A stretch of DNA of 64,000 nt from Halalkalicoccus paucihalophilus (lineage in GTDB: Archaea > Halobacteriota > Halobacteria > Halobacteriales > Halalkalicoccaceae): assembly GCF_001593955.1 (NCBI RefSeq), contig NZ_LTAZ01000013.1, positions 62,001-126,000 on the forward strand. Reading direction: 5' to 3'. The notes beneath the pieces are model-generated. The model was not told the origin of the DNA and did no database searches. It worked only from the letters and a program-made list of their open reading frames with translations. Position 1 is the stretch's first letter. Each line of letters opens with the position of its first letter. The position numbers were made by a program, and so were the translations under genes. Shown here one piece after another: positions 30,208 to 57,358 of this stretch.

Positions 30208-30258
30208 TCTCAGGGTGAAGTCAGAGGCAGTCTGACTCGCACTCCCTTCCCCCTGGGA
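30208..30258 (+). repeat. GTCAGAGGCA stem-loop, copy A
   Basis: TCTCAGGG (30208-30215) pairs with CCCTGGGA (30251-30258), one G-T pair; the loop holds 4 bases, GTCAGAGGCA (30220-30229) and 21 bases. Confidence 0.6.
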
Positions 30259-30429
30259 TCCGTCGTGCCATGAGCGCACAGTGTGGCGGTCCATCAGTCA
30301 CTTGGAACCGACACTATGGCAATCCCTCACTTTGTCACCAAGGTATACTAATCAAACAGCCAGTAACTGTCGTAGAATTTATTCCTTCCGTCGCACTTGC
30401 GGCGCGTCTGGACACGAGCGTCTGCGGCG

Positions 30430-30603
30430 TTACTTCAAGACATGCTGGATTCGATAGTCGTTATCGCAGGAATCCGAGCACTGTCTGTCAGAGGCAATAG
30501 AATGGCCGGTAGCGAGGAAGTGCTCAATTGCTGGATGCCCCTGCTGTGACTCTTTGCTCTGTGGACTGGCTGACCACTCACACACTACGCAATAGTTACG
30601 CAT
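30430..30603 (-). CDS. Possible small zinc-finger protein
   Basis: About 57 residues, MRNYCVVCEWSASPQSKESQ then GHPAIEHFLATGHSIASDRQ. The CxxC followed by H...H spacing (EHFLATGH) is a plausible zinc finger. It overlaps the stem-loop at 30476-30525 on the other strand, so one of the two calls may be wrong. Confidence 0.35.
   Translation of the reverse strand: MRNYCVVCEWSASPQSKESQQGHPAIEHFLATGHSIASDRQCSDSCDNDYRIQHVLK
30476..30525 (+). repeat. GTCAGAGGCA stem-loop, copy B
   Basis: GAGCACT (30476-30482) pairs perfectly with AGTGCTC (30519-30525); the loop has 4 bases, GTCAGAGGCA (30487-30496) and 22 bases. Confidence 0.6.
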
Positions 30604-31045
30604 CTGATTGTTCAACCCGTATCCAACGAGCTACAAAAGAGATTGACTGTGCTCCAGCAAGCACATTATTTACCCCCAAAATCGGGTGTATCCCACAACC
30701 ATCCCACCATGTCGTTCCATTTTATACTAACCCGTCGTATTCCTCTAGAATCCTCGAAATTCCTCGGCCCGTCCTCAAGCCGTTCGTTCGCAGTTTGGAG
30801 ATCATCAATAGTGTCCGCGAGCCATTGCCCACGTGTTTCGTAGCCGTCGGGGCAATCGTCTTGTTCCGGCGAGCTACCCGTCGGTGAACTCGCTTGTCAA
30901 GTCCTTTCGGCGTAGACGATAAGAGAGTAGTAGACCGGGAGTTGAATTTTATCTCCATTCCACATCTATATCATCTTATCAAGTCATTAATTGGTTGTAA
31001 TTATGTATATAGTTAGGTACATGACTTATCATTGTTATATTGCGT

Positions 31046-32422
31046 ATGTCGCAAGAAAAACCCAACGAAATGGACAACGAGGAAAGGAGTGTCAAACGGA
31101 GACACTATTTGCAAGGAGTAGCAGCGCTTGGCATCGGGATGAGTGGGCTCGCAACGAGTACGCTCGCCCAGAATGGTGATCCGCTCCCGGCGCCGCTCTG
31201 CGGTGAAGCGAGCACACCGCCAGAGCGGCCGCCAGGCGGGCAGGCAGGCCAGTGTATCAACTGTGTGCGTAATGTGTGTGAGAATGAGCCGATTGCCGTA
31301 GCCCTCTATAGTGATCTTTCCGGAACCTGCTTCACGATTTCAGCGGAAGAGATCCCGGAGAATGCTGACTACATTACGTTTAAAGCAGGTCAGAATTGCT
31401 TCCTGGGAGAAGTCCCCGAGGATCCAGAAGGCGACGTTACGTGGTGCCTACCAGAAGGATCGCAGGACATTAGCAACGCAACGTTCTACACGTGCGGCGA
31501 CGAGGACCCCCCGGCAGTTGACGACGTGATGGCTTCCTGTGAAGAGATCGTTATTACTACTTCGAACATTCCCGACGATGATACGCTCGACGTGACGGTC
31601 GATTTCGCGGATGGGTCGACGGAGACCTATGAGGATGTACCGGTCCAGAACGGACAGGCAACGGTTGAGTTGCCCGGTGACGTGAACCCGGTACATGTTA
31701 CGATTACGTATCAGGATAACCTGATACTGTTCGACGCGGGTGTGATGGCAGACCCGCCATGTGAGGACGAGCCGGCCGTCACCGATGTCCGGGTCACATG
31801 TGCGCAGATCATCATCCAGACCGCAAACATTGACGAAGACGAGCCGCTGGATGTGACGGTGGACTTTACGGACGGCTCCACGGAAACGTACACGCCAACG
31901 GTCGATGCGACCGGTGTTGCAGTGGTCGAACTCCCAGGGGATCGCGATCCGGAACATCTCACTGTGGAGTACAATGATTTAGTACTGTTTGAGCAGTTCG
32001 TGGCAGCAGAGGATGCACCGTGTAGGAGACCGCCGGAGTGCCCACCGGGTCTCGACATCGTGTACAAATACAACAAGAAGAAGGGAATATGGTGCCCGAA
32101 GGTCGAAACCGGAGGCGATCCGGATGCATTCTCGGTTGAGGGTGACAGAGAGGAGGTGACGATCTGTGCACCCTTCCCGTTCGCTGTCAGCTATGCCGTG
32201 CAGGAAAAGAATCACAAGCACTGCAAGAAAGATGACAAGCACCACGACGATCAGACGTATAAGAACCACGAGAATTGTAAGGAGCAGGACCCTGTGCTGG
32301 CCGAGCCAGTTGACAGTCAATACTGTGTAACAATCTCGTGTAACTTGAAAAAGAAGGTCTGCTGGTTCCGTGTCTTCTGTCCAGAGAACAACAATGGACC
32401 AGGGAACAACTCAGGTGACTAG
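31046..32422 (+). CDS. Secreted Cys-rich protein with two Ig-like repeats
   Basis: 458 residues. Tat-type signal KRRHYLQGVAALGIGMSGLA then an A-x-A-like site. A Cys-rich N-terminal section follows (CGEAS, CINCVRNVCEN), then two homologous beta domains of ~85 residues beginning VDDVMASCEEIVITTSNI and VTDVRVTCAQIIIQTANI, each with LDVTVDF-DGSTETY and VELPGD. The C-terminal third is Cys/His/Lys-rich (HKHCKKDDKHHDDQTYKNHE). ATG 31046 preferred over TTG 31040. No known family; the layout suggests an extracellular, possibly metal-binding, structural protein. The signal region resembles that of the 13256 protein. Confidence 0.75.
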   Translation: MSQEKPNEMDNEERSVKRRHYLQGVAALGIGMSGLATSTLAQNGDPLPAPLCGEASTPPERPPGGQAGQCINCVRNVCENEPIAVALYSDLSGTCFTISAEEIPENADYITFKAGQNCFLGEVPEDPEGDVTWCLPEGSQDISNATFYTCGDEDPPAVDDVMASCEEIVITTSNIPDDDTLDVTVDFADGSTETYEDVPVQNGQATVELPGDVNPVHVTITYQDNLILFDAGVMADPPCEDEPAVTDVRVTCAQIIIQTANIDEDEPLDVTVDFTDGSTETYTPTVDATGVAVVELPGDRDPEHLTVEYNDLVLFEQFVAAEDAPCRRPPECPPGLDIVYKYNKKKGIWCPKVETGGDPDAFSVEGDREEVTICAPFPFAVSYAVQEKNHKHCKKDDKHHDDQTYKNHENCKEQDPVLAEPVDSQYCVTISCNLKKKVCWFRVFCPENNNGPGNNSGD

Positions 32423-32519
32423 CTGAACGCACCGAAAACACGTTCGTCAAACGTACCATAGTTATCTGATTACTCTTAATATCGTCAATTAGGAGCTTCG
32501 AGAGGGTGTCATCTGGCTA

Positions 32520-33010
32520 CTCGACAGTCCGGAGAATTTGAACGGCTCGGGATCAATTCAGTCTGAATTCTTTCGCTACTTGCTCTCAGTCGTCTTGAGG
32601 ACTCAGCGGAGCGCGCACCCTTTGATGTGGAATTCAGAGCGCTCGGCGTCTCCGCGTCGGAGCGACTCCTGGCCACAGTCAACCGACCCCGAAAGACAGA
32701 CCGACGAAGCGAACGTGACGCCCTGTGCCTCTCCGTCGCCCGTGACCGAGCGGGCGTAGAGTGTAGGACACGTCTAATTTAATTGTCTCTGGCGTCTGGC
32801 CCTGCGCTACAAGCGTCTTTCGTCGGCATGGAACTCATGCCGAGAAGACACACGCAAGCCCCCGTCCTACTCGCGCTGACGCGCTCGTTGGGGACCGGGT
32901 AGTTGACCAAGCGATAGCGCAACCAACAGTGAGAGAGACGGAAGTGGTTGGTTACAGGAGGCACAGCGCAATGCCACGGTCTTTAGGCCGTGGATACGCG
33001 CGTAAGGTTG
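32520..33010. mobile_element. Degraded tnpB-type element remnant 1
   Basis: GC-richer segment without an intact frame ending in CCACGGTCTTTAGGCCGTGG (32972-32991), a hairpin with the CTTTAG loop seen at other element ends here. Confidence 0.45.
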
Positions 33011-33424
33011 ATGACACCTCCCACCGTCAATTACAGTACCGGAGTTCCCACGTCGGCGAACGCGGTCGTTGACCGCACCGATGCTTTGCATCGACTCGTT
33101 CCGTGGTAAGAAATCCAGTGTCGACACTGAACCAGTCCGCCACGTCCCGGCCCACGGGTCGGACGCGAATGGCGGTACCCAAGAGGCTGAATACCCTCTC
33201 GCGGAGGGACGGTCGGTATTCCGTTCCGGTGAAACGCCCGGCGCGTCCGGGTGGGAAGGCCGCTTTGACACGGCTATACGCACTGCAACGCACTCCCTCG
33301 GTAATAATTGGGAGGCAACCCATGACGGGACCACGCGAAAGCGTCCTTGCGTCCTGAGGAAACGTGCAACCTTGAACTCCCCTTCGGGGATTCCCGCGAC
33401 TTTAGGCGCGGGAGACTGTCAATC
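33011..33424. mobile_element. Degraded tnpB-type element remnant 2
   Basis: Second gene-less GC-rich segment, closed by the hairpin CCCGCG (33393-33398)/CGCGGG (33407-33412) and a GTCAA-like terminus, the end structure expected of IS200/IS605 (IS1341) elements. Confidence 0.5.
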
Positions 33425-33520
33425 ACGGTACACTCTCCATTCTCGTTTTCTCGTTCGTTTCTCGCGACTGGGAAACTAAAGAACGCTAACATATTTCACT
33501 CGAGCCGTGCAGCCGACCAT

Positions 33521-34063
33521 ATGGTCAAAGAACAGGATGGTAACGTCGTTTTGGACGACCTCGATCGAAAAATCCTCTATGAATTACAGCAAGATGCGCG
33601 GAAAACGACCCACGAAGAGATCAGTGCCACAGTCGATGTCTCCCCGAGTACGGTCCGCAATCGGATTACCGCACTCGAAGATGCGGGTGTCATCAAAACG
33701 TATTCTCCAGAACTCGACTACGAACGAGCGGGGTTCTCGCTTCACGTGCAGTTCGTCTGCACAGCCCCAATGGATCAGCGTCATCAAACGGCACACGACG
33801 CATTAGACATCGGCGGTGTCATCACAGTCCAAGGGATGGTGACGAGTGAGCGCAACCTCCGTATTGAAGTGATTGCAACGAGCTCGCAGGATCTGACCGA
33901 GATCACGCGTGAACTCGGGAATCTTAACCTGGATATTCATACCTCCCAGATCATCACGAATACGTTCAATCAGCCGTTCAATTATTTCGAGCATAGTCAG
34001 TCCCGACCTGACGTCTCAGAAGACGCCACAATCGAGCACACTCCACATACTGATCAAGAGTGA
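33521..34063 (+). CDS. Lrp/AsnC family regulator
   Basis: 180 residues. LDDLDRKILYELQQDARKTT, HEEISATVDVSPSTVRNRIT and ALEDAGVIKTYSPELDYERA form the AsnC-type HTH and linker; the remainder is a RAM-like alpha/beta domain (VITVQGMVTSERNLRIEVIA) with an extra acidic tail. The ATG at 33521 is used because the upstream extension to 33347 runs through transposon-end sequence. Probable DNA-binding regulator that senses an amino acid or small effector. Confidence 0.85.
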   Translation: MVKEQDGNVVLDDLDRKILYELQQDARKTTHEEISATVDVSPSTVRNRITALEDAGVIKTYSPELDYERAGFSLHVQFVCTAPMDQRHQTAHDALDIGGVITVQGMVTSERNLRIEVIATSSQDLTEITRELGNLNLDIHTSQIITNTFNQPFNYFEHSQSRPDVSEDATIEHTPHTDQE

Positions 34064-34147
34064 ATTTCGTCACAATCAATGCGAATTTCGCAGGGAACAG
34101 ATAGTACTGCAGTAAACTAATAGGGATTGACTACGATAGTGTACGCT

Positions 34148-34204
34148 GAGAGGGGAACGATAACGCCGAAGAAGTAGTGCCTCTGACGGCCTCGTTCCCC
34201 TCTC
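34148..34204 (-). repeat. GTCAGAGGCA stem-loop, copy C
   Basis: Perfect 13-bp stem GAGAGGGGAACGA (34148-34160) with TCGTTCCCCTCTC (34192-34204). On the minus strand the loop reads 4 bases, GTCAGAGGCA (34187-34178) and 17 bases. Confidence 0.7.
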
Positions 34205-34369
34205 TCGCCCTGGAAAGGGCAACAAAGCAGTAGTTAGTACGGGATAATATTGTTCAAATATCACTATCACGTCCTAGATCTGCGATTTTCGCAGAATAAC
34301 CGCGCCCCGTCGTTTCGAGAAATGATTGGGGTGGCGATACGCGTCGATCCATCCTTCGTCTGGCTTGGC

Positions 34370-34690
34370 TAAGGCGGATAGCGCGGAGCCCTCTTCCTCA
34401 ATCGCGAGCGAAGCGAGCGGTAGGGAGGAGAGGAGCACGTGGTGAAGCAGGGCGCAACTAGTACGGTAGCCCGACCCGTACTGTCACGGAGTGCTGTGCT
34501 GGCATACGTCCCGCGCAGTACGGGCCGCAGTAGCCCGGCCCGAAATGGTGGGACTGTAGACCCCGGACGGGCGTTCGGGAGGCGGGGCGCACACAACGCT
34601 CCGTCGCGCCACTTGACGGCGAGGTCCACATCAAAGTCCCACTCTCAACAAGCGAGCCCGTATGGGCGAACGAAGGAGGGTGGGGTCGGT
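34370..34690. mobile_element. Transposon remnant (GC-rich)
   Basis: Contains, in reverse orientation, the GCTCGCTTCGCTCGC hairpin and GAGGAAGAGG end-like pattern also seen at 20146 and 53202. No intact transposase frame. Confidence 0.35.
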
Positions 34691-35345
34691 TACTTTTTAC
34701 AGCGGTTTGCACGAGCAGATATGATGGATTTCTGGCAGACTTCTCAGGAAATCGGAGCACTGCCATACTGATTATGAGGCTGCATGCACATATTCATCAG
34801 GGGTCCCGGTATTGTCTTTACATTTTCGGCGTCAGAAAGCCGTGAGCGCCGAGGCACCACTCAACTACTAACTATCACCCCCATCTATAAACGTCTAACA
34901 ACTGGTATGGCGTTCTTACTACCCCGTACCTCCTTCATACTAATACACATCCGTCTCCGAGTAGTCCTACGGCATTCCGGAGGAAAAACCAACCTGCTCG
35001 GTCATGTTACGACCCTCCGTGATGCCGTCAAACCGAGAGAGAGGAGTGCACTCACCGCCCACCTGCGTTCGCGGTGTGCTGGGGACCGTTCCCATTTCCC
35101 CTCTCCTCTCATCGCTCAATCTTGTTGAGTGATCACCTAGTCAGCGGAGCTGCCGTCATCCTTCTTTCGTGCTGGATCGGGATCGTCAGAGACAGCATGG
35201 TTTGTCACACTACGAGACACGGTCTGGAAAGCGGGAGAGCGGAGAGAGCACACTGCTTGCAACTCTACTAATAGCCAGTCCACCGGTGGACTGTGAGTCG
35301 GTTGTTCCAGCATCCTACCACGGCCCTGTCGATTGCTATGGTCTG

Positions 35346-35362
35346 AATACTAGTATGTCTGG
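35346..35362 (+). promoter_or_regulatory. PadR leader box, copy 1
   Basis: AATACTAGTATGTCTGG, ending 17 bases before the PadR start codon. The same ACTAGT-centred box stands at the same distance from the PadR genes at 57359 and 61568. Confidence 0.55.
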
Positions 35363-35379
35363 AAGGTGATAGTGAGATC

Positions 35380-35667
35380 ATGTACGATTTGACTGGCTTC
35401 CAACGCGACGCCCTGTATGTAATCGCTGGCGGAGACCAGCTCAACGGCCTCGCAATCAAAGCCGAACTCGACGATTATTATGAGACAGAGGTTCATCACG
35501 GTCGACTCTATCCGAATCTCGATACACTCGAGAACAAGGGACTGATTGAGAAAGGTGAGGTCGATCGTCGGTCAAACTACTATGCATTGACGGCCCGGGG
35601 CCAGCGTGAGATCGAGGCTCGTCGAGAGTGGGAAGAGCAGTATATCGCCGTCTCCGCCGGCGAATAG
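35380..35667 (+). CDS. PadR family regulator, paralogue 1
   Basis: 95 residues: MYDLTGFQRDALYVIAGGDQ, GLAIKAELDDYYETEVHHGR, LYPNLDTLENKGLIEKGEVD and RRSNYYALTARGQREIEARR. This is the haloarchaeal PadR-like winged helix; the C-terminal dimerisation helix is short. Likely repressor. Paralogues are at 57359, 61568 and 53453, with a fragment at 18517. Preceded by an ACTAGT box and followed by a TTGTGCAAC stem-loop. Confidence 0.88.
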   Translation: MYDLTGFQRDALYVIAGGDQLNGLAIKAELDDYYETEVHHGRLYPNLDTLENKGLIEKGEVDRRSNYYALTARGQREIEARREWEEQYIAVSAGE

Positions 35668-35734
35668 CCGCTTACTCATTGGATCCGAGAATAAGCGATT
35701 CGCATTCTTCGATATTCGCTATTCGATAAGCAAT

Positions 35735-35779
35735 CCTTGTGCAACATCGGCGGCCACGGAAGGTAAGCGTTGCACAAGG
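35735..35779. repeat. TTGTGCAAC stem-loop, copy 3
   Basis: CCTTGTGCAAC (35735-35745) and GTTGCACAAGG (35769-35779), 23-base loop, 68 bases after the PadR stop; could act as its terminator. Confidence 0.85.
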
Positions 35780-35901
35780 CTGGCCGATTCTATATGCTAC
35801 CGATAAAAACCTATTAATTAATATAGTTGAAGTTCTAAGAGTTAGTGCAGCCTGATTGGTTCCTGGCTGCACGCAAACCCACCCCTACCCGTTCATGAGA
35901 A

Positions 35902-35924
35902 CCTCTCCGAATCGGAGGGGTTTT
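35902..35924. terminator. CCTCTCCGA hairpin with T run
   Basis: CCTCTCCGA pairs with TCGGAGGGG (one G-T pair) followed by TTTTC. Copies at 57881 and 42891. Confidence 0.45.
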
Positions 35925-36192
35925 CGACGCACGACCAACAGGCGAATCGACTACGAACACCTTGTCATGATTGGAACCACAAGACACCGCCGGAGTCGGT
36001 GAGTGGTTCCGGCTCCGAATCGGGCAGTCACTACTGTTTACTCAAATCACCCGAAGGTGTCCCCCTCTCGCTTCCGTGATAATACTGCTCTCTGTCGGGT
36101 CACTCACGAGAGTAGTCATGGACATCCTGGAACGAATCGCACTCTTAGCAGACAGCTCCTCGATCGAACTGAAGTCAAGCAGTTTCGAGAAT

Positions 36193-36402
36193 TCACCAAT
36201 CACATTGCCTACAAAGATCTTCTCTTGTCTGATACAGCCGTTCATTGAGACAACGAGCGAGGTCTGGTACCCCTTCCGCGGTGAGGGTATCATATCCTGA
36301 ATCGTTTTCTCGGAGTTTATGACCGGTCGTACAGCTCTTTCTCATTGGTATAGCGATATGCCAACGACCATCCGGATCTACCTGAGCCTCAGCCTGAACC
36401 AT
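36193..36402 (-). CDS. Small hypothetical protein
   Basis: 69 residues, MVQAEAQVDPDGRWHIAIPM then HKLRENDSGYDTLTAEGVPD and a Cys-containing end (DLCRQCDW). Reasonable composition and a good ATG, but no family recognised; it overlaps no other candidate of higher quality. Confidence 0.4.
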   Translation of the reverse strand: MVQAEAQVDPDGRWHIAIPMRKSCTTGHKLRENDSGYDTLTAEGVPDLARCLNERLYQTREDLCRQCDW

Positions 36403-36536
36403 GATGTGCTAGTATAGTTCTGTACGGTACTATTTCAATAGGTTGAGATTTCATCGGCTACATACGGCGTTAGGGAAGAATACCGTCTCATTACGTCACT
36501 TGAGGATGAGTGACGACAGTCTGTCTTGGGGCTAGT

Positions 36537-36567
36537 TGAGCACCATCGGCCATATTGATGGTGCTCA
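36537..36567. repeat. 11-bp hairpin
   Basis: TGAGCACCATC (36537-36547) and GATGGTGCTCA (36557-36567) pair perfectly around a 9-base loop. No gene or T run is attached. Confidence 0.6.
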
Positions 36568-36648
36568 CGTAGCCGATCTCGGCAACAGATGGTGGAACGC
36601 CTACCTCATATTCCCACTAGTCAGCTGCTGGAATCGTAATTCCGGTAT

Positions 36649-36696
36649 CCTTGTGCAACACTCACCCGCTCTTACATAGACGAGTGTTGCACAAGG
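36649..36696. repeat. TTGTGCAAC stem-loop, copy 4 (extended stem)
   Basis: CCTTGTGCAACACTC (36649-36663) pairs with GAGTGTTGCACAAGG (36682-36696), 15 bp, 18-base loop. The extra four pairs beyond the common core are unique to this copy. Confidence 0.85.
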
Positions 36697-36958
36697 CAAG
36701 GTCGAGAGGGGGTTCAGCCGGCGATTCAGAAAACAACTCACCCCCATGATCAACAAGTCGCCACGATTCCTATTTCTATTCCCTCAAGCAATGAACCTCA
36801 CTGCAGCAAGAACATCGGAGACGCGGGATGTGAGACGAGAGTAATGGCACTCCGATAGGCGGCGAGACCTCTCTCTGTTCTCTGCACTAGTTTGTGGCTT
36901 CTCACAATCCATATAGACCGGATATCAATTGACACGTCCAGTGATTATAGTGTTGGCT

Positions 36959-37237
36959 ATGCCATACGACTCAGACCGGCACAGCACTCGCCGAACGTAC
37001 TTTGCTCGTACTGGCGCCCTGGTCGGCACCACTAGCCTCGGTATGAGCGCGCTCGGCAGCGCAAATGTACATGACGAGAAAGACGACAACGACCTCGAGA
37101 AAAAAGAGCCCAAAGACGGGGGAGAGAGAAAGAAAGAACACAACCTGTTCCTGACGCATTTCGCGGAACTCAACGGGAAGAATGAGGTTCTCCCCGTCAC
37201 GACCGTCTCTAACTTGCTCTGTTCTATTGCTGGGTGA
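36959..37237 (+). pseudogene. Truncated CHRD-domain secreted protein
   Basis: 92 residues. Tat-like leader STRRTYFARTGALVGTTSLG, a charged Lys/Glu linker, and the first strand of a CHRD domain (FLTHFAELNGKNEVLPV, compare the family start F-x-A-x-L-x-G-x-NEVPPV). The frame then enters unrelated sequence and stops, so about 90% of the domain is missing. A 3'-truncated gene. Confidence 0.6.
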
Positions 37238-37421
37238 CTGAACCATTCGTCTATGGTGAATCCCCCCCTTCTGCCGGTGATCATCCCGTGTTTGCGGATG
37301 CACTACTGTCCCGAGCGAGCGAGGAACTCCCGTCTCGGAGCGACCGAAGCGGAGTGAGAAATACACGACCCATTTGCCCCATGCTTTTTGCCTCAACGCT
37401 GTATTGGTGAAGCTATACTGA

Positions 37422-41271: not shown

Positions 41272-42610
41272 GTTGACATCCTCCACGCCGTAAACGACGT
41301 GGAATCCCGATCGCCGTTGGGATATTACGGTTTACAGTCCACGACCTGTTCTCGCGGGGCGAAACTGCCCTCGCTACGATCGAACAGATGGACTGAAGGC
41401 TGTGCCAACCAGCCGTTACTCCTATCCTTCGCGGGACTCGGAGTTACTTTTCGCCGAATGTTCTCCGCACCATTCACGTCCGCGTTCGCCACGGTATCAC
41501 ACTCCTCGCAGACGTACAACCCGCGTTCGACCCGCTGGTTGCCGTCTTTCGTCCCACAGGCGGAACACATCTTTGAGGTATCTCGTTCGGATTCTACCGT
41601 TACGTCGATCCCTTCGACTTCCGCCTTGTAGTCGAGTATCGACGTGAAACGGTCGAACGCCCATCCGTGAAGGTCAAGGTTGCCGTGCTTCCCCCTGTTT
41701 CGAGGATCGCCGTTCTCGTCGTCGCGGATACCACCGAGATCCCCGATGACAATCGTCCCGACGCCTCTCTCTACGCACTCCGAAACGATATGTTTCGAGA
41801 GAGTGTGCAAGAAGTGGCTTCGGCGTTCCGTGCGCTTCCGATCCAGCCGAAGCCGCTCGTTGGATCGGCTATCGTCGCACTTCGCTTTCTTCCGTCCGAA
41901 GTAGTATTCGTCCTCTTTCAGTGCGTTGCCGGGAATGAGGATCGATTCACCGCCGAACGAAAGCGCGGCGACGTTCGAGATACCGAGGTCGACCCCGGCA
42001 GTCTCGTCTCCCGGCGGTTCGGGATCAATCACCTTTCGACAAACGAAGTGAAGCCGCCACTCGTCGTACTTGTGGATGGCCCGAACCTGTTGGATGTCCC
42101 ATTCGGAGAGGTCTACGTCGGGGCGCATCTCGTATTCGCACAACACGAAGTCCGAGCGGTGTTCCTTCAGGTTACGTCCTTTCGAGAGGCGAACGCGGGT
42201 GAACTGTGCGTCGTGCTTGAAGCCAGCCGCTTTGAACGACACGGTAGAACGTGGGTGCGAATCTCCGTTCTTACGGTAGCCGGGCGGTCGGGCACGGCTA
42301 TCGCCGTTCCGACGCTTTGCGAACCAACCGTTGAACGCTTCAGCGAGTTCTTCGAGAACGCGCTGACTGGATTGAGAATGGAGATCCGTATAGCGTTCGT
42401 GGCCTTTGAGTTCGGATTTGAGTTCCCCATCATCAGGGATCTCGCCCGTTTCGTCCCACTGTTCTTGTGCGTAGTAGCGACCGACGTTCCAGAGCTTCGA
42501 TGCAGCCCGTCCGAGTTGATCGAGGTCGTCACTCACCTGCTGTGGGTTGGTGATCGACGCCTCGAATGTTCGGTGGGTTCGCATCGGATTCTGACTCCAT
42601 AACCAGTTAT
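41272..42610 (-). mobile_element. IS1341-type (tnpB-only) element
   Basis: One full-length tnpB without tnpA. The 3' end of the element is marked by the TTGACATC terminus at 41273 and a TCCACG/CGTGGA hairpin (41282-41303); the other end is not sharply defined and is set near the tnpB start. The 50 bases between the tnpB stop and the terminus are where the guide (omega) RNA scaffold of such elements is expected. Confidence 0.75.
41325..42584 (-). CDS. tnpB: TnpB, RNA-guided nuclease of IS200/IS605 family
   Basis: 419 residues. N-terminal OrfB region with helix-turn-helix-like segment, a RuvC-like nuclease (first Asp in GVDLGISNVAALS, acidic block IVIGDLGGIRDDE, last Asp in ANADVNGAENI) and the CxxC...CxxC zinc finger MCSACGTKDG/YVCEECDT. 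All catalytic residues are present, so the protein may be active. TnpB proteins cut DNA guided by an RNA from the element's 3' end. The long antisense frame at 41667-42602 is a shadow. Confidence 0.92.
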   Translation of the reverse strand: MRTHRTFEASITNPQQVSDDLDQLGRAASKLWNVGRYYAQEQWDETGEIPDDGELKSELKGHERYTDLHSQSSQRVLEELAEAFNGWFAKRRNGDSRARPPGYRKNGDSHPRSTVSFKAAGFKHDAQFTRVRLSKGRNLKEHRSDFVLCEYEMRPDVDLSEWDIQQVRAIHKYDEWRLHFVCRKVIDPEPPGDETAGVDLGISNVAALSFGGESILIPGNALKEDEYYFGRKKAKCDDSRSNERLRLDRKRTERRSHFLHTLSKHIVSECVERGVGTIVIGDLGGIRDDENGDPRNRGKHGNLDLHGWAFDRFTSILDYKAEVEGIDVTVESERDTSKMCSACGTKDGNQRVERGLYVCEECDTVANADVNGAENIRRKVTPSPAKDRSNGWLAQPSVHLFDRSEGSFAPREQVVDCKP

Positions 42611-49104: not shown

Positions 49105-49410
49105 TGGCGGTCACCACTTCCTTCCACGAGAAATTACAAGTAGTCACCTAGTGAAGTCACTTGGTGATATTTTTGCAGTTGCTGGCATTCATGCGGTGAC
49201 TGAAATGGATCTCCAAGCCTACCGATGACGGTAATCACTCAGCTCCCTGACTGAATGAATCGTTTCATATAGATATCAGATGATTGAACTCAACTGTGAC
49301 TCCGATCACAGAGTGGCTATGCCTTCAAGACAGATCAATTATCTCGTGTGTTATGAGCCGTGATCTGCCTTGTTAGCAGTGAGTGGCTTCTGCGTTCTCT
49401 CGCACGTTCC
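49105..49410. other. Intergenic, nothing recognised
   Basis: About 300 bases; the inverted TAAGTAGTCACCTAGTG / CACTTGGTGATAT-like AT-rich segment near 49140-49175 probably contains the promoter of the DUF1326 operon. Confidence 0.3.
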
Positions 49411-51336
49411 TTACTGAGGGAGCGTGGCCTCCATACAGGTGTAGCCATCCGGCTCGCCACATGCCGGCTCGGGTGGTAACGGTGAGGTTCGGTTCCCTCG
49501 TTTCGATCCCCATTCGAGCATCGGCAAGAGGACGCTTGAAGGCGTATCCCCACCATAGGACAGGATATTCTCACTGCCGCTATCAAGTGGATCATACTCC
49601 CAATAACGGGCCGGGTCCGGACCTTCTTCCTGAGGTGGAGCATGGATATTGACCAGTAGCCGATGACCCGGGTAGACGATATGGCCCAGTGGGAAAACTT
49701 CGATATCATAGCGATAGCGCTCTCCAGAGATGATTGGTGTTGGATCGACCATCGTATGATATGGGCGAATGATCTCCCCCGCTTCGTTCCGGAGTGTCTT
49801 TGCCTCATTGAGTTCGCGATGACTTGCGCGCAACATCCCTCGCTGGAGATACGTTACTGCTTCATCTCCCGGCTCGACATCGGCCAGTGAGACATACATC
49901 TCAGTATTCTCTGCCGATGACTGCAAATAGAGGGTTGCAGTAATCGGGCCAGCGATTACACGTGGCTTCTCGAATGGGGCTGACCAGTAACTGAGGAGTG
50001 TTTTATCGGTCAGATCATCGATGTACCAGTAGTCCGGACTCGAACTCGTGTACGTTTCCTTTCCTGCAGTTGTCGGTCGTTCGGTCGTCAACTCGTGGTT
50101 GCCACCGATGTAATAGCGCGTCCAGTCCGTGTTTGATGCTGGGAAGCCATCAAGACTCATCGTGCCGTGACTGTCCTTGGTATCCATACCGAAATCCAAC
50201 CGAACAGGCGCTTCCTGCATGATACCGGTATTTTCCCCGCGAAGCCAGTAGTCGAACCAACGCCGACCATCCCGATCGCGGCCGAGTGCCCGCCACGCAG
50301 TGCCGTGAACTCCGTTCGTTGCCCGCAAGAGCTTGGGTGACTCACGGAGCTCGGGGCTTGGTGGGCGTCGGCCCGGGAAATCTCCAGGATGAATCGGATC
50401 CGGATCGAGAGCGTTGTACACTGCGGGACCGCCGCGTTGACCGACTTGGCCATCCTGCCAGCCGACGCTAATGTAGGTCGGTACTTCGATCTGCTTTGCC
50501 ATCTCAATGAAATTGATTCGTCGATAGCCATCGTTCTCCGTTCGCTTCCGATACCAGGTAGGATGTTGATCGATGATCGTCTGTGGATCACGGTTCGCCC
50601 GATGCTGTCTGCAGAACGGATCCTCCTGTTCTGGGATGATATCTTGTGACTCCTCATCCCACCACAGTGTTGGGAGGTTATTGAGCCAGTTGTCGAACGC
50701 GAGATTGTCGACGCCGCCGGGGAACGTGCGGCCTCGGAGTAGATCACCCATGATCACGTTCGCAGAGACACACGCTAACGACGGTGGCTGGGTGGATGCG
50801 ACCCGAATAGACGTCATTCCTGAATACGAGAGTCCGAACAATCCGATCCGATCGAGCGACCACGGACGAGCCGCAAGCCACTCGATAATCTCGTGACCAT
50901 CCAATCCGTGACTCCGTTTATCATAAACTTCACCGAAATCTGATGCATCGCCAGCTGAGCACGCCGTTGCTCGAACACTCGATTGTACGTGGACATATTC
51001 GTCACCGAGATCCGGTGATGGGATCGCGCTGTACACGCCAACGCTCGTCGCGATGAGTGTGTCGTCCGGCATCCGAATATAGTGGGTCGGGCCGTTGGCT
51101 GCGAAACTCGCGCCCATATACCCATCGTGTGTGTACACGACAGGTCGATCGGTACCGGTTGGCGGGTCCCAATCGTGGCGGACGTATCCCCATTCTTTTT
51201 TCGCGAACGTGTCGTCGTAGTCGATGTCTCCATCCGCTTGCGAATAGAGTCGCTCTTTGGTAGCGCCTACACAACCGCTACTTGCGATCCCAGCAGTCCC
51301 GATGACGATTGATTTGAGAAGCTGTCTACGTCTCAT
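49411..51336 (-). CDS. CocE/NonD family hydrolase, Tat lipoprotein
   Basis: 641 residues. Start chosen at 51336 because MRRRQLLKSIVIGTAGIASS followed by GC is a Tat signal with lipobox (ASSGC). Alpha/beta hydrolase with nucleophile elbow IGLFGLSYSGMTS, Asp in SVGWQDGQVGQ and His in TNGVHGTAW, then the C-terminal jelly-roll domain (PITATLYLQSSAENTEMYVS; HRLLVNIHAPP) typical of CocE and X-Pro dipeptidyl peptidases. Likely a membrane-anchored extracellular esterase or peptidase; substrate unknown. Confidence 0.88.
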   Translation of the reverse strand: MRRRQLLKSIVIGTAGIASSGCVGATKERLYSQADGDIDYDDTFAKKEWGYVRHDWDPPTGTDRPVVYTHDGYMGASFAANGPTHYIRMPDDTLIATSVGVYSAIPSPDLGDEYVHVQSSVRATACSAGDASDFGEVYDKRSHGLDGHEIIEWLAARPWSLDRIGLFGLSYSGMTSIRVASTQPPSLACVSANVIMGDLLRGRTFPGGVDNLAFDNWLNNLPTLWWDEESQDIIPEQEDPFCRQHRANRDPQTIIDQHPTWYRKRTENDGYRRINFIEMAKQIEVPTYISVGWQDGQVGQRGGPAVYNALDPDPIHPGDFPGRRPPSPELRESPKLLRATNGVHGTAWRALGRDRDGRRWFDYWLRGENTGIMQEAPVRLDFGMDTKDSHGTMSLDGFPASNTDWTRYYIGGNHELTTERPTTAGKETYTSSSPDYWYIDDLTDKTLLSYWSAPFEKPRVIAGPITATLYLQSSAENTEMYVSLADVEPGDEAVTYLQRGMLRASHRELNEAKTLRNEAGEIIRPYHTMVDPTPIISGERYRYDIEVFPLGHIVYPGHRLLVNIHAPPQEEGPDPARYWEYDPLDSGSENILSYGGDTPSSVLLPMLEWGSKRGNRTSPLPPEPACGEPDGYTCMEATLPQ

Positions 51337-51853
51337 GAGACCAATACCCACGTTAAGACATAAGTATTTTATTATATTGTATAATAATATAATTTTAGAT
51401 AGCATGAATTTATCTGATTGCGGGCGGGTACGGTTCTCACCCCAATGAGTGGCCGAAAGCACGAGTAAGGAACGGGTATGCCCGCTGTTGTCGTCTGAAA
51501 CCGCGACATTCTACTACATCGGGACGGTGGGTGACGTTTCAGCCGATATACTGAGAAGTATCTCGAGCAACGGAACACGTTTAGCGGAGTATGCAGCCTT
51601 CATTCTCGAGATCAAACCTTGAAGCACTCTGTCGACATCGTTTGTAGAAGGCAATCTCTCAGGGCATATTGAAACTCAGGTGAGTAGAGCCACCTAAGTT
51701 GGCTTTCATGAGTTGGAAGAAAGCCATATAGACAAATTCACTCAGGGTAGTTGAATTTAACGATCGAATCGAGCATAACTATCTTTAAACAGCGAGAGAA
51801 TCCCGCCCTTTAGGGCGGACGTGAATCGCGTACGGTCCGTTACACAGCCGCCG
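51337..51853. other. Intergenic with transposon-end hairpin
   Basis: No gene. GAATCCCGCCCTTTAGGGCGG at about 51794-51814 is a hairpin of the tnpB-end type. Confidence 0.4.
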
Positions 51854-51979
51854 TTAATCGGCTGAACTGGATTCCATACGTTCGTCAATACACTCTCTAA
51901 CGAGACTTGATAGGTTGATATGGTTCTCACGGATCCATTCGTCCTGTTCTTCTCGGATTGTGACGTTTCGTCGGTCCAC
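51854..51979 (-). CDS. Short ribbon-helix-helix protein
   Basis: 41 residues from a GTG: VDRRNVTIREEQDEWIRENH then INLSSLVRECIDERMESSSA. One basic strand followed by two helices is the RHH DNA-binding fold. It lies 54 bases from, and divergent to, a tnpB remnant; small RHH genes of this kind often sit next to haloarchaeal tnpB elements, so it may be part of that element. Confidence 0.55.
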   Translation of the reverse strand: MDRRNVTIREEQDEWIRENHINLSSLVRECIDERMESSSAD

Positions 51980-52032
51980 AATCCTACTATGGGATAGGTA
52001 CAGTTCCGTGTGTATGGTGTGTAGCGTGTAGT

Positions 52033-52340
52033 ATGGCAAAGATGGTGACGAAGACGCTTGAAGCCACCCTCGCCTCACCGACGCAGGGGAAAGGAGTTTC
52101 GCCTTCGTCATCTTCTCGCCACCTACCGCGAGGCGTTAGACGATGCGTTCGATTCGGGGGCGGATACGATGGTGGCGTCAGCGACGTAGTGACGCCGTTT
52201 GACCTTCCGTATCAAGCGAAGGCGCCCCTCTGTAGTTACGTTCCGAAGCTACGGAAAACGTACAACGCCGCAAGATAGACGATGAACACCCGTTCGGAAA
52301 GGAGGGGATACAGCGTTCACGAGACGCTTCGCGTCTCGTT
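52033..52340 (+). pseudogene. TnpB N-terminal fragment, multiply frameshifted
   Basis: MAKMVTKTLEATLASPTQGK, then in other frames RLRHLLATYREALDDAFDSG, VVTPFDLPYQAKAP and YVPKLRKTYNA. This is the N-terminal domain of the second TnpB subfamily common in haloarchaea. At least three frame changes and two stops, then the similarity ends. Confidence 0.65.
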
Positions 52341-52468
52341 AGCTAACCAGTACGTTCCGCGTTCTGATAACGCCGTTATCGTCTGTCTTGCTTGGAACAA
52401 TGACTAGCAAAGTACAGACAATTAGAATCGGGTAATTTATAACTGGAAGTGACGATAACGATTCGCAT

Positions 52469-52617
52469 GGGTGTATAGTTCAGACTGGAAGAACACCTAC
52501 TTAGTAACCTTCCGTTGAAATGATGGTGAGGGGTGATACGCGCGACATCTCCTGATTTCATACGAGAGACGAGGTGACTAAGATAGGAGGCCCGGGGTTC
52601 AAGTCCTCGTGCACCCA
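52469..52617 (+). tRNA. tRNA-like sequence with 75-base insertion (possible pseudo-tRNA)
   Basis: Acceptor GGGTGTA (52469-52475) pairs with TGCACCC (52610-52616) plus discriminator A. D arm GTTC-AGACTGGAA-GAAC keeps A14, GG and A21; the T arm CGGGG-TTCAAGT-CCTCG has the invariant TTC and closing G-C pair. The anticodon stem CCTAC/ATAGG has one mismatch, and the would-be loop TTAGTA is interrupted after position 37 by 75 bases (52507-52581), the usual archaeal intron site. The anticodon would be AGT, not expected in archaea, so a decayed tRNA or integration-site relic is more likely than a working gene. Confidence 0.45.
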
Positions 52618-52699
52618 TTGCAGTTACAATCCAGAGAAAGCAGTAGAACAGTTGCTCCGCGGCCGATTCGTGAGGACGATGAATACTGTCGACTATTAG

Positions 52700-53260
52700 T
52701 TACTGGAACAGCATTGGTTGGTATGTCAACTACCCAGCCCTGAACGCCTTCGGCGTCATCAGAACGCGGGGCGTTCTGATTGGCTAACAAGACGCTTCGC
52801 GTCTCATGAACGTTCTGCGGACAGGGCTTGCGTGGTTTCGGCCGAGAGTTGTGGTCCCGGACCGACTTGTTTGCCGGTGCGGTCGGTCGGCAGAGGCAAT
52901 GTAATTGGACGTGACCTCGGCGACTTCGCGGCACGTCAAGCGTGCTCGGAGTGGTCGCGTCCCCAGAATGCGTTGCATTCTGGTGTGCGAACGAGACGCG
53001 AAGCGTCTCGTCAACGTCGTCGGTCCGTCCTTCGGGGTCGGTTGACTGCGGCCCGTCCCAAGCGAGGAATCAAACCGTCCCCGCACCGCAATATTGGTTC
53101 GGCACCCATTGCTGGGCTGTCTGAAGCCCGCCACAGGACTACATACGACGACGGGGCGGGCGATACTACCTGTTTCGCCCAGCTTCGCCACGTGATTCCT
53201 CCCCTCCCTACTCGCGGCTTCGCCGCTCGTTGAGGACGGGGATTCCTCGCTACCGCCTGT
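52700..53260. mobile_element. Degraded tnpB-type element remnant 3
   Basis: GC-rich, no intact frame, full of short hairpins (GACGCTTCGCGTC type), ending at 53202-53250 in CTCCCTACTCGCGGCTTCGC and GGGGATTCCTCGC as in 19768-20272. Confidence 0.45.
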
Positions 53261-53452
53261 TGAAATTCGTCAGCGGTGACAGTGAGAAGAGCTACTCTTC
53301 ATCTTGGATTTCACGGAGCCAATGCGAAACGAGCTTCTCAGCAAATCGCACGGCTGCACGAGGGTTTCAACAGAGCCTGTGAGAGGGAATTGGAGGGACC
53401 AACGGCTACTGAGCCACTGTGCAAAAAGCGGTTACGAGTAGTTGCGGGTTTG

Positions 53453-53809
53453 TTAGCTGATGAGTGTCTGAAGGTCCCCAGCACGCTCTTCATCAGTGAC
53501 GAGCTTCGAAAACTGCCAGTTGAGCTCGCCCAGAAGGAGCTCATATCCCTTGTCAGTGAGCTCGTATTGGTTGGTGCGCTTGTCGAGTTTACTTTTTTCA
53601 ACGAAGCCTTCCGAGACGAGCTCATCGAGATTCGGGTAGAGTCGCCCGTGATTGACCTCGTTGTTGTAGTACGCCTCAAGCTCAGCCTTGATCGCCAATC
53701 CGTACAGGGGTTCCTTTGCGAGGATCGTAAGGATGTTTCGCTGGAAGGCGGTCAACTCGGATGCGGTGTGCTGTTCGGTGCCCTGGTGAACTGCTTGTGC
53801 CTCTGACAT
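53453..53809 (-). CDS. PadR family regulator, paralogue 4
   Basis: 118 residues with an N-terminal extension: HTASELTAFQRNILTILAKE, YGLAIKAELEAYYNNEVNHG, RLYPNLDELVSEGFVEKSKL, RTNQYELTDKGYELLLGELN. Typical haloarchaeal PadR wHTH, more distant from the three ACTAGT-linked copies, and without that box upstream. Confidence 0.87.
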   Translation of the reverse strand: MSEAQAVHQGTEQHTASELTAFQRNILTILAKEPLYGLAIKAELEAYYNNEVNHGRLYPNLDELVSEGFVEKSKLDKRTNQYELTDKGYELLLGELNWQFSKLVTDEERAGDLQTLIS

Positions 53810-54105
53810 CCCTTGTCTCTACGACATGCACTCTGTTAAATCTGTGGATAATTATATCAGAATGACAAATGATGGTAGATGGGTAAATTGATGATTCAGA
53901 GACAATATTCCCCGGTAATCAGAGATACTCTGTCAGTCACATCGGTGGTAAACGGTGTTCTGTCTGTATAACTGTAGCCGATCTAGCTATATCTGTTAGG
54001 TTTTATATACCCTATCCGAATGTATTCTCTTTAACTGTTAATGATAGAGATATTAATAGAACAACGACACAGTGGTTTTAACCGAGAAGCTGGTAATGGA
54101 GACTG

Positions 54106-54639
54106 ATGTCAGCCATAGAACTCACACCAAACCAGAAAACCATTCTCACGGCGCTCGTAAACCTACACCGAGACGCAGAACACGCCGTGAAAGGGGAAAC
54201 GATCGCCGAGGAGGTCGACCGAAACCCAGGAACGATCCGCAATCAGATGCAGAGTCTCAAAGCCCTCCAGTTAGCCGAAGGCGTCCCCGGTCCAAAAGGC
54301 GGGTACAAACCAACGGTCACCGCCTTTGAGGCGCTGGATATCGATCAACTGGATGAACCGGCAGCAGTTCCGCTCACGCACAACGGCGAGTCCGTCGACG
54401 AGGCCAATATCCAGGAAATCGATCTCTCAAGTGTTCACCACCCCGAGCAGTGTCGCGCGGAAATCCATATTCAGGGATCCATCCGCGAGTATAAAGAAGG
54501 TGACCGCATGACCGTCGGTCCAACACCAGTCGCGAAACTCGCGATCGAGGGATTAGTCGATGGAGTCGACGAGACGAGCAACATTCTCGTCTTGCAGATC
54601 GATCAAATCGAAGCACCCAGTACTGAACCAACTCACTAA
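54106..54639 (+). CDS. HTH regulator with C-terminal beta domain
   Basis: 177 residues. IELTPNQKTILTALVNLHRD, VKGETIAEEVDRNPGTIRNQ and MQSLKALQLAEGVPGPKGGY form a winged helix whose KGGY wing resembles Rrf2 proteins. The C-terminal part (CRAEIHIQGSIREYKEGDRM, TVGPTPVAKLAIEGLVDGVD) is a beta-barrel-like effector domain. A conserved haloarchaeal regulator whose ligand is unknown. ATG at 54106. Confidence 0.8.
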   Translation: MSAIELTPNQKTILTALVNLHRDAEHAVKGETIAEEVDRNPGTIRNQMQSLKALQLAEGVPGPKGGYKPTVTAFEALDIDQLDEPAAVPLTHNGESVDEANIQEIDLSSVHHPEQCRAEIHIQGSIREYKEGDRMTVGPTPVAKLAIEGLVDGVDETSNILVLQIDQIEAPSTEPTH

Positions 54640-55352
54640 CTGCTTTGTGGGCCGCCGACACCGGTGTCTCCAATCGTCATCTGGAGATCGTGCTGATCAG
54701 TGCGTAACCAGAATGAAGAATGGGACCCATCACTCCAACCGTGGTACTATCAAGAGTACATCCATGACAGACCAGCGGTTAACTAACTAAGACCTTATCA
54801 ACGAGAAAGAACGCAGGGACCATCCCTTTCCCATGGAGTGCCTCTGACAATGGGTGACGGCACTGAAAAATACAGCAGTCACCTACTTGTCTCTTTTGTC
54901 TGAGTGACATATGTAAGTCAGCCATGCGTCTGACGTGTAGATGACGAACGACTGACGCGGGGACTACCCCTGTGTGCACCCCTCAGTTAATTTATTCATC
55001 CGACTATTGTTAACTAGTATTACATAACAGTTAAATAACAATAGTACGTATCTACAGGAGAGAGCGACCCTGTCAGAGGCACCCTATCATAGGAACCGTC
55101 ATCGCTCTCACCACTGGCCTGTCAAACCGCATTACTAGAGTTCTATATAAAAAACCCGCGAACCTATTTAAACGACCCTGACTAGTCATCCTGATCGCAG
55201 CCGCGAATCCCAATAAACCCTCCTCACGTCAGGGTCCCTCTTTTTAGATCCCTCTCGTAAGAACGTGACACATAGGTATGAGTAGCATAATTCATGAATT
55301 ATCTAACTAATAAATTACTTGTGACGATTAGAAGGAAGTGGTAGATGAGACG
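54640..55352. other. Gene-free stretch with structured repeats
   Basis: Holds one GTCAGAGGCA motif on the minus strand (54848-54839, inside a CCCAT/ATGGG stem) and the stem-loop at 55060-55109; AT-rich around 55000-55050 and 55290-55320. Confidence 0.5.
55060..55109 (+). repeat. GTCAGAGGCA stem-loop, copy D
   Basis: GAGAGCGA (55060-55067) pairs perfectly with TCGCTCTC (55102-55109); loop is CCCT, GTCAGAGGCA (55072-55081) and 20 bases. Confidence 0.65.
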
Positions 55353-56006
55353 ATGAGTGTTCTCGTTGAAGTGGAGGTCGGCGCAGATGAATTCGAATTG
55401 GGACGCGTATTTGCAGGACTTGAGTCGGGGGCACGTATCGAGCTTGAGTCCCTTGTTCCACTGCCGGGAGCGATGACTCCACTCGTTTGGATTGAAAGTG
55501 GTACCCATGATTCGCTTGAAAGCAGGATTGGTGATCACCCAACAGTGACAGCAGTCGAGCGACTGGAACGATTGAGTGAGCGGTCACTCTACGCAATCGA
55601 GTGGGCACTCGACTATGATCATCTGTTCCGGTATTTTCGCGATAACGCCGTTCATCTTCTCTCTGTAACTGGATCACCAGAAACATGGCAATTCACAGTA
55701 CGGTTTCAAACCCACCATGCACTCTCCACGTTTGATGATTATTGTGAGAACAGTCGAATCTCGATTGAGGTTCTGCGCGTCTATAACCACCCAGAGCAGC
55801 AACCCGACCAGGCTTTCGGAATTACACAACCCCAACAAGAAGCGCTCATGTTAGCCGTTCGTGAGGGGTACTATGATATTCCCCGCCAGTGTGATACGAA
55901 GGGGTTGGCTGAGCAACTGGGGATTTCCGATCAGGCGGTGTCGGAACGATTACGCCGAGCGATTGCAACGCTTACCCGAAATGCACTCATGGGTGAGCAG
56001 CTATGA
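55353..56006 (+). CDS. HTH_10 (Bat-like) transcription regulator
   Basis: 217 residues. N-terminal ~150-residue beta/alpha sensor-like domain as in bacterioopsin-activator proteins (SVLVEVEVGADEFELGRVFA; AIEWALDYDHLFRYFRDNAV), then the HTH_10 domain FGITQPQQEALMLAVREGYY, DIPRQCDTKGLAEQLGISDQ, AVSERLRRAIATLTRN. The full counterpart of the fragment at 29545. GTCAGAGGCA stem-loops lie on both sides. ATG 55353 is preferred to GTG/ATG at 55338. Confidence 0.87.
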   Translation: MSVLVEVEVGADEFELGRVFAGLESGARIELESLVPLPGAMTPLVWIESGTHDSLESRIGDHPTVTAVERLERLSERSLYAIEWALDYDHLFRYFRDNAVHLLSVTGSPETWQFTVRFQTHHALSTFDDYCENSRISIEVLRVYNHPEQQPDQAFGITQPQQEALMLAVREGYYDIPRQCDTKGLAEQLGISDQAVSERLRRAIATLTRNALMGEQL

Positions 56007-56466
56007 GTGAATGTATCCAGTCGAATGAACACGCGAATTAGGCTTGGTGAGGCTAAATCATGGCTCACCAAGTCAACTATTATGCATATAGCGTTGATAA
56101 TTAGAGTCGTCTGCCGCTGAGACAGGCCACTCACCCTGAGGGTGTGCCCACACCTTGCGGGGTGCCTCTGACAATCGGATGGGGCCAGTCGGGCCAACTC
56201 CTGCCCGGAGTGCCTCTGACACATCACGGCCCGGCTGGTCTGACTTTCCTCTCTGTGTTTGGCCATCAGACAGCTGAGTCTGAGAGCGACTTCGATCGAC
56301 AGAGCGATATGAAACATCGGGTTAAAGTGGGCGTCATTACAGGAGAACCACATCTTGTAACCAGGAGTCCACATCTCTCTCGATGCGCAACAGATCCCTG
56401 CTGTAGGCACGGTAGTGATAGAACGGAAGGCTACAGTGAGGCAGCAGCGATTCTTCTGGCTGTCTC
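56007..56466. other. Gene-free stretch with tandem stem-loops
   Basis: No protein recognised; carries the two elements at 56146-56247. Confidence 0.5.
56146..56247 (-). repeat. Tandem GTCAGAGGCA stem-loops, copies E and F
   Basis: On the minus strand, copy F: CCAG-C-CGGGCC pairs with GGCCCG-A-CTGG around GTCAGAGGCA (56220-56211). Copy E follows directly: GCCCCA pairs with TG-T-GGGC (one bulge) around GTCAGAGGCA (56172-56163). Confidence 0.55.
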
Positions 56467-56868
56467 CTAGAGAGCGTCTCGAACGAAATCCGCCGACAGC
56501 TCTTGATACGCCGCATGTTCGGCGTACTCTTCAACGAAGGGCTGCTGGTGATATCGAACACTCTCACTTCGGGAATCGTATTCGATGACATCAAGCCCCT
56601 CAAGTCGGGGAAGCGATTCCTCTATCAAGAGCGATTTGAGCTGGTTACTCTCAACTACTGCTGATTGCTTACTCTCCTGGCTTGCAAGTGTTTGAATTCC
56701 TGTGACTAACTGCTCAACTGAGCTACTGGAGGCAGATGTCGCTAAGAAATAGTAGATGACATAGCGGCATGATCGCGATGCGAGTGTCTTGAAGACAGCC
56801 GTATGAGCGGTTGTCCCGCCAAAGACATCCGTTTCAGCGGGCACAATTGACTCAATGTTGCTACTCAT
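56467..56868 (-). CDS. DUF7344-type HTH protein 2
   Basis: 133 residues. AVFKTLASRSCRYVIYYFLA then VEQLVTGIQTLASQESKQSA, and LPRLEGLDVIEYDSRSESVR with YHQQPFVEEYAEHAAYQEL. Same layout as the protein at 20273, including the shared EEYAEHAA-like ending (EEWVEHAA there). Probable regulator. Confidence 0.75.
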   Translation of the reverse strand: MSSNIESIVPAETDVFGGTTAHTAVFKTLASRSCRYVIYYFLATSASSSSVEQLVTGIQTLASQESKQSAVVESNQLKSLLIEESLPRLEGLDVIEYDSRSESVRYHQQPFVEEYAEHAAYQELSADFVRDAL

Positions 56869-57358
56869 CGTTGCTACTCCGTGTTTGCCGGTGTTCGACT
56901 GATGAATACTGGTTCATTGTGTCAGAGGCAACCCGTTAGGGGCGCCCACCTCTGAGTGGTGATAAACGCAGTGGGTTTCAATCGTATTCCTCGTTCCCCT
57001 TTCCCCCTCAGATGGCAGACGCTGAATCATACCTATACTATCAATAGGTAAAACCAGAAGGGATGGCATACCAACCCACGTATGGCCCTCTCTGCTTGAC
57101 TGTGCGGTGCACCCTCATTGTGACCAAATATGTACCTAGAACGGTACTATGGAGAGGTCATGACCGAACACCGGCTCTCCTCTAATGCCGCACTAGCAAT
57201 ACGGTCGCTATGCGCATTGGTATGTGGATATTGACAGAAATTAGAGGGGGGATTTTATTGATTGCGAGATATTTACACCCGATCTGGTAACTGTGAATAT
57301 TTAACTTTTGACTGGTATGTTCCGAGTACTAGTGAGTCTGGCGTCGAACAGAGTACCT
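56869..57358. other. Intergenic; one GTCAGAGGCA motif and PadR leader
   Basis: GTCAGAGGCA occurs at 56922-56931 without an obvious enclosing stem. Otherwise no gene. Confidence 0.45.
57324..57341 (+). promoter_or_regulatory. PadR leader box, copy 2
   Basis: GAGTACTAGTGAGTCTGG, ending 17 bases before the ATG at 57359. Confidence 0.55.

Follow-up and report, generated by a model that had tools for sequence, protein, structure and literature searches.

A haloarchaeal family of intergenic decamer stem-loops marks candidate small-RNA genes with a loop complementary to the start of a PadR-type regulator gene

What is the decamer GTCAGAGGCA of Halalkalicoccus paucihalophilus, which recurs between genes inside stem-loops of dissimilar sequence? 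The window analyzed here, i.e., the whole stretch of 64,000 nucleotides, had given rise to an original prediction of eight copies, always between genes, that might reflect a selected RNA or an attC-like recombination site. The repeated word is real, and the chance expectation stated at that time, about 0.1 copies in 64 kb, agrees with the 0.12 obtained from 100 dinucleotide shuffles, but the exact copies number nine (Table 1). The copy at 53798 (-) had been overlooked, and the last copy had been placed one base off, at 56922 instead of 56921. The overlooked copy also shows that the decamer is not confined to intergenic DNA, as it is contained in the first codons (ATG TCA GAG GCA CAA) of a PadR gene. 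The other eight copies are located outside the genes predicted by a simple gene caller, whose set lacks some real genes, and none falls within a window gene that matched Pfam; the one at 56921 lies upstream of a DUF7344 gene (56467-56868, -). The decamers at 54839 and 55072 are each retained in four of four aligned sequences, including H. jeotgali plasmid 1 in the former case, with both stem arms kept in three of four in the latter. The sites homologous to the one-base variant at 30135 (L017:2671, L041:2417, and L041:5373) carry the exact decamer.

Table 1. Positions of decamer sites, variants and associated features in the window (for the eight decamers other than 53798, with or without a stem-loop, the strand is the inferred RNA strand)
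Feature	Position	Strand	Basis or remark
PadR-family regulator gene, 118 aa, MSEAQ...	53453..53809	-	PF03551, E=3e-17; proposed target
Decamer at PadR start codon, coding, sense	53798..53807	-	exact word count
Stem-loop around decamer 30220	30208..30258	-	decamer complement
Stem-loop around decamer 30487	30476..30525	-	
13-bp stem-loop around decamer 34178	34148..34204	+	
Short 5-bp stem-loop around decamer 54839	54830..54854	+	
Stem-loop around decamer 55072	55060..55109	-	
Decamer 56163, without strong stem	56163..56172	+	
Stem-loop around decamer 56211, 12 positions	56185..56238	+	
Decamer 56921, without strong stem	56921..56930	-	
One-base variant GTCAGAGACA	30135..30144	-	variant search
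One-base variant GTCAGAGGCT, then loop-like word GAGCTCATCC	27250..27259	+	
One-base variant GTCAGAGGCC	29844..29853	-	
One-base variant GTCAGAGACA, upstream of PadR gene 35380-35667	35185..35194	-	
Second-family inverted repeats	35735-35779, 36649-36696, 57714-57758, 4824-4868		
Loop-like words GAGCTCATCCA/CCATGAGCGCA	window 27237; L017, L021, L024, L028, L036, L041, L066, L087, L088, L095		

The enrichment is not a peculiarity of the window. The complete Halalkalicoccus genome holds 62 decamers against 7 copies of the reversed word, and their stem pairing exceeds that of controls, so that the further copies sought by the original prediction do exist. In a survey of 40 genomes (the own genome included, with the reversed word as control), enrichment was evident in five genomes of the same genus (decamer/reversed word, 30/6 in G004, 21/4 in G002, 17/5 in G001, 11/6 in G003, and 9/4 in G005) and lacking in a sixth (G006, 6 versus 5), while the counts in genomes of other families were mostly near the control. 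Pooled sites gave an extended consensus, T-GTCAGAGGCA-CC, with the T present in 95 and the first C in 94 of 120. The resulting 13-mer TGTCAGAGGCACC was detected in 63 of the 243 genomes of the order and, as counted from the table of hits, at 87 places outside the genus versus 12 for its reverse.

All four stems reported earlier were found in the sequence, although loci homologous to 30220 (L017 and L041) form another, tighter stem (CGACTCAGG/TCTGAGTCG). Partner-swapped controls demonstrate that pairing around the decamer is better than expected of its flanks: the mean best-stem score of the own 62 sites was 16.8, compared with 14.0 (sd 0.55) in 20 such controls. A pooled set was compiled from five genomes (131 distinct sites, reduced to 120 by dropping 11 PadR starts); it still includes a few coding sites of other kinds and counts related copies more than once. 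Perfect helices of at least 7 bp occurred there 26 times versus 5.5 (sd 2.3, maximum 10) in 30 controls, and those of at least 8 bp 15 times versus 1.5; at the level of sites, only 25 of the 120 carry a helix of this first class, i.e., 7 bp or more (5.7 in controls). The fixed spacing of exactly 4 bases between stem and decamer was too narrow a description, given that it is one of several and that, on the 5' side, gaps of 4 and 6 are the most enriched. Four genomes share one place, following homologous gene ends, at which the stems are wholly different in sequence, comprising 12 positions with one mismatch in L020, 13 with two in L064, 9 with none in L099, and a shorter stem, judged by eye, in L053. 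Folding energy indicated no strand preference in Halalkalicoccus, the complement being lower in 52 of 120 sites.

Other repeats were observed in these regions. Two loop-like words lie near decamers, namely, GAGCTCATCCA, found 12 times in the genome versus once for its reversed control, and CCATGAGCGCA, of which the GCTCAT and ATGAGC parts are complementary. A second intergenic family consists of an inverted repeat (CCTTGTGCAAC, ∼25 bases, GTTGCACAAGG), whose word TTGCACAAGG is present 30 times in the own-genome loci examined. Separately, window positions 32952-33425, where an incomplete gene table lists no gene, are ∼70% alike in two Natrarchaeobaculum plasmids, and parts of them are 71-81% alike in Haladaptatus and Natrinema plasmids.

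Outside the genus, part of the decamer sites belong to a larger element. We took 60 regions around 13-mer places (6 from Halalkalicoccus), containing 62 sites, and 18 of the 60, picked by eye, shared a common architecture. Read in decamer sense, this canonical order comprises one to three hairpins with CCGGGCA-like loops, then GCCGG...TGTCAGAGGCACC..CCGGC, and then an AT-rich stretch. The pattern GCCGG-N0-8-TGTCAGAGGCACCCCGGC matched 55 stretches in a collection of 84,980 species, 53 of them titled as haloarchaea and the others as "Halophilic archaeon SHRA6" and "uncultured archaeon A07HN63". In the 18 canonical regions, the nearest gene in the 3' direction resembled one family of HTH regulators in 9 cases and a PRC-barrel protein in 4, as does the neighbor of L019 in the own genome; Pfam searches on one neighbor of each type returned HVO_A0261_N and PRC. 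An element of 3' or 5' untranslated regions was considered and rejected because orientation to the adjacent genes is mixed. In the window, Rfam 15 recognized only sot0042 and a tRNA, both away from the element, and with 20 element loci at E values up to 2 it produced one weak match, off the element. As for those two window matches, the former (sense overlapping transcript RNA, 41282-41449, -) scored 107 bits, and the latter extends over 149 bases (52469-52617, +) and perhaps contains an intron.

The hairpins adjacent to the decamer hairpin carry a signature of selection on structure. A pairing score was passed by 73 hairpins, of which 44 shared one register; after removal of near-copies, 35 with UGCCCG loops were compared. 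In this preselected set, the covariation score was 0.931, against 0.277 in shuffled sets and at most 0.178 in slid versions. Paired positions accounted for 90.8% of 315 cells versus 56.7% after shuffling, a percentage inflated by the preselection for pairing, and all 9 pairs change on both sides, a count that is uninformative since shuffles give nearly as many (8.3); the covariation score is the informative measure. With the MAFFT alignment A2, RNAalifold predicted 7 pairs, none with changes on both sides, and this approach failed because hairpin geometry varies.

Stem mismatches then identify the strand. In 80 CGGGCA-loop hairpins from 32 clusters, with the two pairs nearest the loop left out, there were 41 A.C, 4 G.T, and 16 other mismatches (binomial p ∼1e-8); with no pairs omitted, the counts were 44, 13, and 19. 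Because A.C on one strand equals G.U on the other, the RNA of the canonical class is the complement of the decamer strand, and the decamer strand itself was rejected as the RNA strand for this class. Conserved secondary structure on one strand is thus found for the UGCCCG-loop hairpins, and in RNA sense the first loop reads GGUGCCUCUGACA (also given as UGCCUCUGAC) and the second UGCCCGG. The idea of a selected RNA structure is therefore supported for the canonical UGCCCG hairpins, by covariation and strand-specific wobble, with the amendment that the RNA would carry the decamer complement; its support is stronger outside the own genome than within it.

The same evidence bears on a DNA-level element, namely, an operator for a regulator or an attC-like exchange site whose stems form cruciforms, which we consider very unlikely. 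The decamer hairpins themselves are without wobble excess (10 G.T, 10 A.C, and 30 other mismatches over all sites at threshold 7), as such an element would allow, and two AT boxes precede the loop in the named canonical class. Moreover, L032:2042 (-), which provides the principal hint of recombination, is a chimera with its junction at the decamer: the left flank belongs to group B (87% over 320 bp to window 55072) and the right flank to L031/L035 (91% over 231 bp to L031). Against a DNA-level element stands the strand-specific A.C excess in the adjacent hairpins, and the many other homology ends at the decamer are explicable by its being the last conserved word. A recombination hot spot was likewise rejected, since of the numerous homology ends at the decamer only that in L032 represents a clear chimera; where flanks have diverged, the decamer is the last word still conserved. 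Integron attC sites are built of variable stems around conserved short boxes, a likeness to the present sites, although here the structure signal lies on an RNA strand, and the sites that were read have a single decamer 5' of the loop instead of two complementary boxes flanking the fold. Wobble bias and a promoter-like box both point to RNA, leaving the earlier recombination reading unsupported.

That box was revealed by TATA-like words, which peak 36 to 40 nt before the first loop (35 matches in 54 canonical sequences). A box ∼38 nt before the loop, combined with the usual archaeal box-to-start spacing, would put the RNA start at the first hairpin, which suggests an independent small RNA carrying a hairpin at its 5' end. 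Two further AT-rich boxes, TATATAAA...TTTATATA, ∼18 nt apart, lie 80-105 nt before the loop (L194-L248) and are stronger than the TATA-like box. Few Halalkalicoccus sites have TATA-like words at -40 to -36 (5 matches in 117 sequences), and in this genus the second loop is scarcely enriched on the expected side (11 versus 8). T-runs follow on the complement side at 45 of 120 Halalkalicoccus sites versus 15 on the other strand, meaningless placements giving 21 and 16. The asymmetry is modest in the named canonical class (22 versus 14 of 55) and absent from other 13-mer sites (15 versus 15 of 56). These data touch on the alternative that, for many Halalkalicoccus copies, it is the decamer strand that is transcribed, yielding decoys (target mimics) of the canonical antisense RNA. 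Such decoys would account for a sense strand that repeats the PadR start, and the strand evidence in this genus is weak; the T-run asymmetry nevertheless favors the complement strand, and we think it very unlikely that the copies are decoys.

The coding copy of the decamer leads to the proposed target of an antisense RNA. Within the order, 106 of 146 genomes contain the start word ATGTCAGAGGCAC, usually in one to three copies, compared with 4 occurrences in total of the reversed word, and 18 of 20 sampled places correspond to the beginning of this one PadR gene. Among 30 orthologues, the best protein matches and hence chosen independently of the start word, codon 2 is TCA and codon 3 is GAG in all 30, codon 4 is GCA in 27 (TCA in the other 3), and codon 5 is CAA in 28; the effective number is below 30, as 5 of the proteins are 99-100% identical to the query. 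The codons of many other fixed residues of this protein vary, with entropies up to 2.2 bits, and elsewhere, among the matches listed for the synonymous pattern ATGTCNGARGCNCAR, TCC, TCG, TCT, GCC, and other codons are used. The PadR start is thus conserved at the nucleotide level. A TTAAAT was read by eye ∼29-34 nt before the ATG in 25 of the 30, the spacing expected for leaderless genes. Twenty aligned PadR-family starts from Halalkalicoccus comprise 14 with the exact word, 3 with TCT, 2 with ACA, and 1 unrelated; the apparent nucleotide-level constraint is clear only in the order-wide set and not from this genus alone. PadR-family matches number 29 in the own genome and 28 in G123, and since other genomes also have many PadR genes, co-amplification of decamer and PadR genes is a suggestion only.

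The RNA loop can pair with the PadR start over 12 bases, a conserved complementarity to a distant mRNA. The isolated loop pairs with the PadR start at -24.0 kcal/mol, versus a mean of -9.6 (sd 4.5) over 128 called gene starts, and the six starts at -24.0 kcal/mol are PadR starts. The start word occurs in every one of the 38 genomes that carry the RNA 13-mer, versus 68 of the 108 that lack it (Fisher p 9e-7), and outside the own family in 29 of 29 versus 67 of 107, a co-occurrence that was scored by word from presence lists compared by eye and is confounded by descent. A variant start, ATGTCAGAGTCACAA, occurs in G012, G097, and G136, for which the matching loop word would be TGTCAGAGTCACC; the codon-4 TCA of the 3 orthologues breaks one loop-start pair, and no matching loop was found in the 400 kb (15%) of the 2.72-Mb G012 that were searched. 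Whole-RNA cofolding, in which the hairpin must be opened, left a net gain of only 3.0 to 5.7 kcal/mol for three RNAs. This small gain would also suit a real RNA family whose loops bind a protein, with the PadR start conserved for another reason, e.g., protein binding to the mRNA. Loop conservation stricter than pairing alone requires, and a second conserved loop, UGCCCGG, without known target, are in keeping with protein-binding loops. We nonetheless regard them as unlikely, considering that, on the strands thought to be transcribed, loop and PadR start complement each other instead of being identical, while a single protein reading both RNAs would be expected to find identical sequence.

The literature offers partial parallels to the proposed pairing. 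The sRNA162 of Methanosarcina mazei pairs with a transcription-factor mRNA and masks its ribosome binding site, according to the parts of PMC3510493 consulted. It is likewise an archaeal small RNA that base pairs with a regulator mRNA, as is proposed here, whereas its single-stranded linker pairs inside a two-gene mRNA and here a hairpin loop would cover a leaderless 5' end; as described in those parts, it also differs from the present family, which is widespread and multicopy. In Haloferax volcanii, s479 is an intergenic trans-acting small RNA with a short interaction sequence common to its predicted targets (PMC8155600, in part). The present family would be of the same haloarchaeal trans-acting type, although the s479 sites reported in the same portions lie in the znuC1 transcript. 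Haloarchaeal mRNAs are mostly leaderless, and in those portions the authors consider the mechanism of translation start on them unresolved and call for more work on small-RNA control of leaderless transcripts. In H. mediterranei, deletion of Lsm upregulates the PadR-family gene HFX_0688 under carbon deficit (log2FC 2.37), according to the available part of PMC10779274. Literature searches with the decamer or its complement gave no haloarchaeal title among the matches listed; the seven occurrences of TGCCTCTGAC in the accessible text of PMC5792436 are parts of PCR oligonucleotides and were taken as unrelated. The haloarchaeal small-RNA literature searched does not describe the family, which may have an unnamed entry in supplementary lists. 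The earlier statement that no such haloarchaeal element has been described agrees with this literature and with Rfam at the tested loci.

Considering these results, we favor, as somewhat probable, a small-RNA family that masks the start of a leaderless regulator mRNA and has multiplied in Halalkalicoccus. The intergenic decamers would mark haloarchaeal small-RNA genes whose transcripts have the sense of the decamer complement. The canonical RNA would begin just ahead of the hairpin with loop GGUGCCUCUGACA, by a few bases, and continue through one to three hairpins with UGCCCGG loops; a T-run comes next in some copies. Over 12 bases, the first loop is complementary to UGUCAGAGGCAC; this sequence and the A before it would form the 5' end of the conserved PadR-type regulator's mRNA, which appears to be leaderless. 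If expressed, the RNA may pair with this end in the cell, cover the start codon, and prevent initiation, the sign of regulation presumably being repression; the Halalkalicoccus copies would work like the canonical ones.

A broader circuit can be envisaged, to which we give slightly less than an even chance. Throughout the haloarchaea, the loop of the 5' hairpin would be kept complementary, in many families, to the initial 13 bases of a leaderless mRNA encoding a regulator, so that a small RNA caps the mRNA at its start codon. Halalkalicoccus would have amplified this circuit until dozens of RNAs faced several copies of PadR, and some of these RNAs would bear further loops opposite other start-codon-like words (CCATGAGCGCA). 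The family would thus add to haloarchaeal biology an RNA that Rfam does not recognize in the tested loci, and its conserved pair of loop and mRNA start would provide a genetically testable case in Haloferax.
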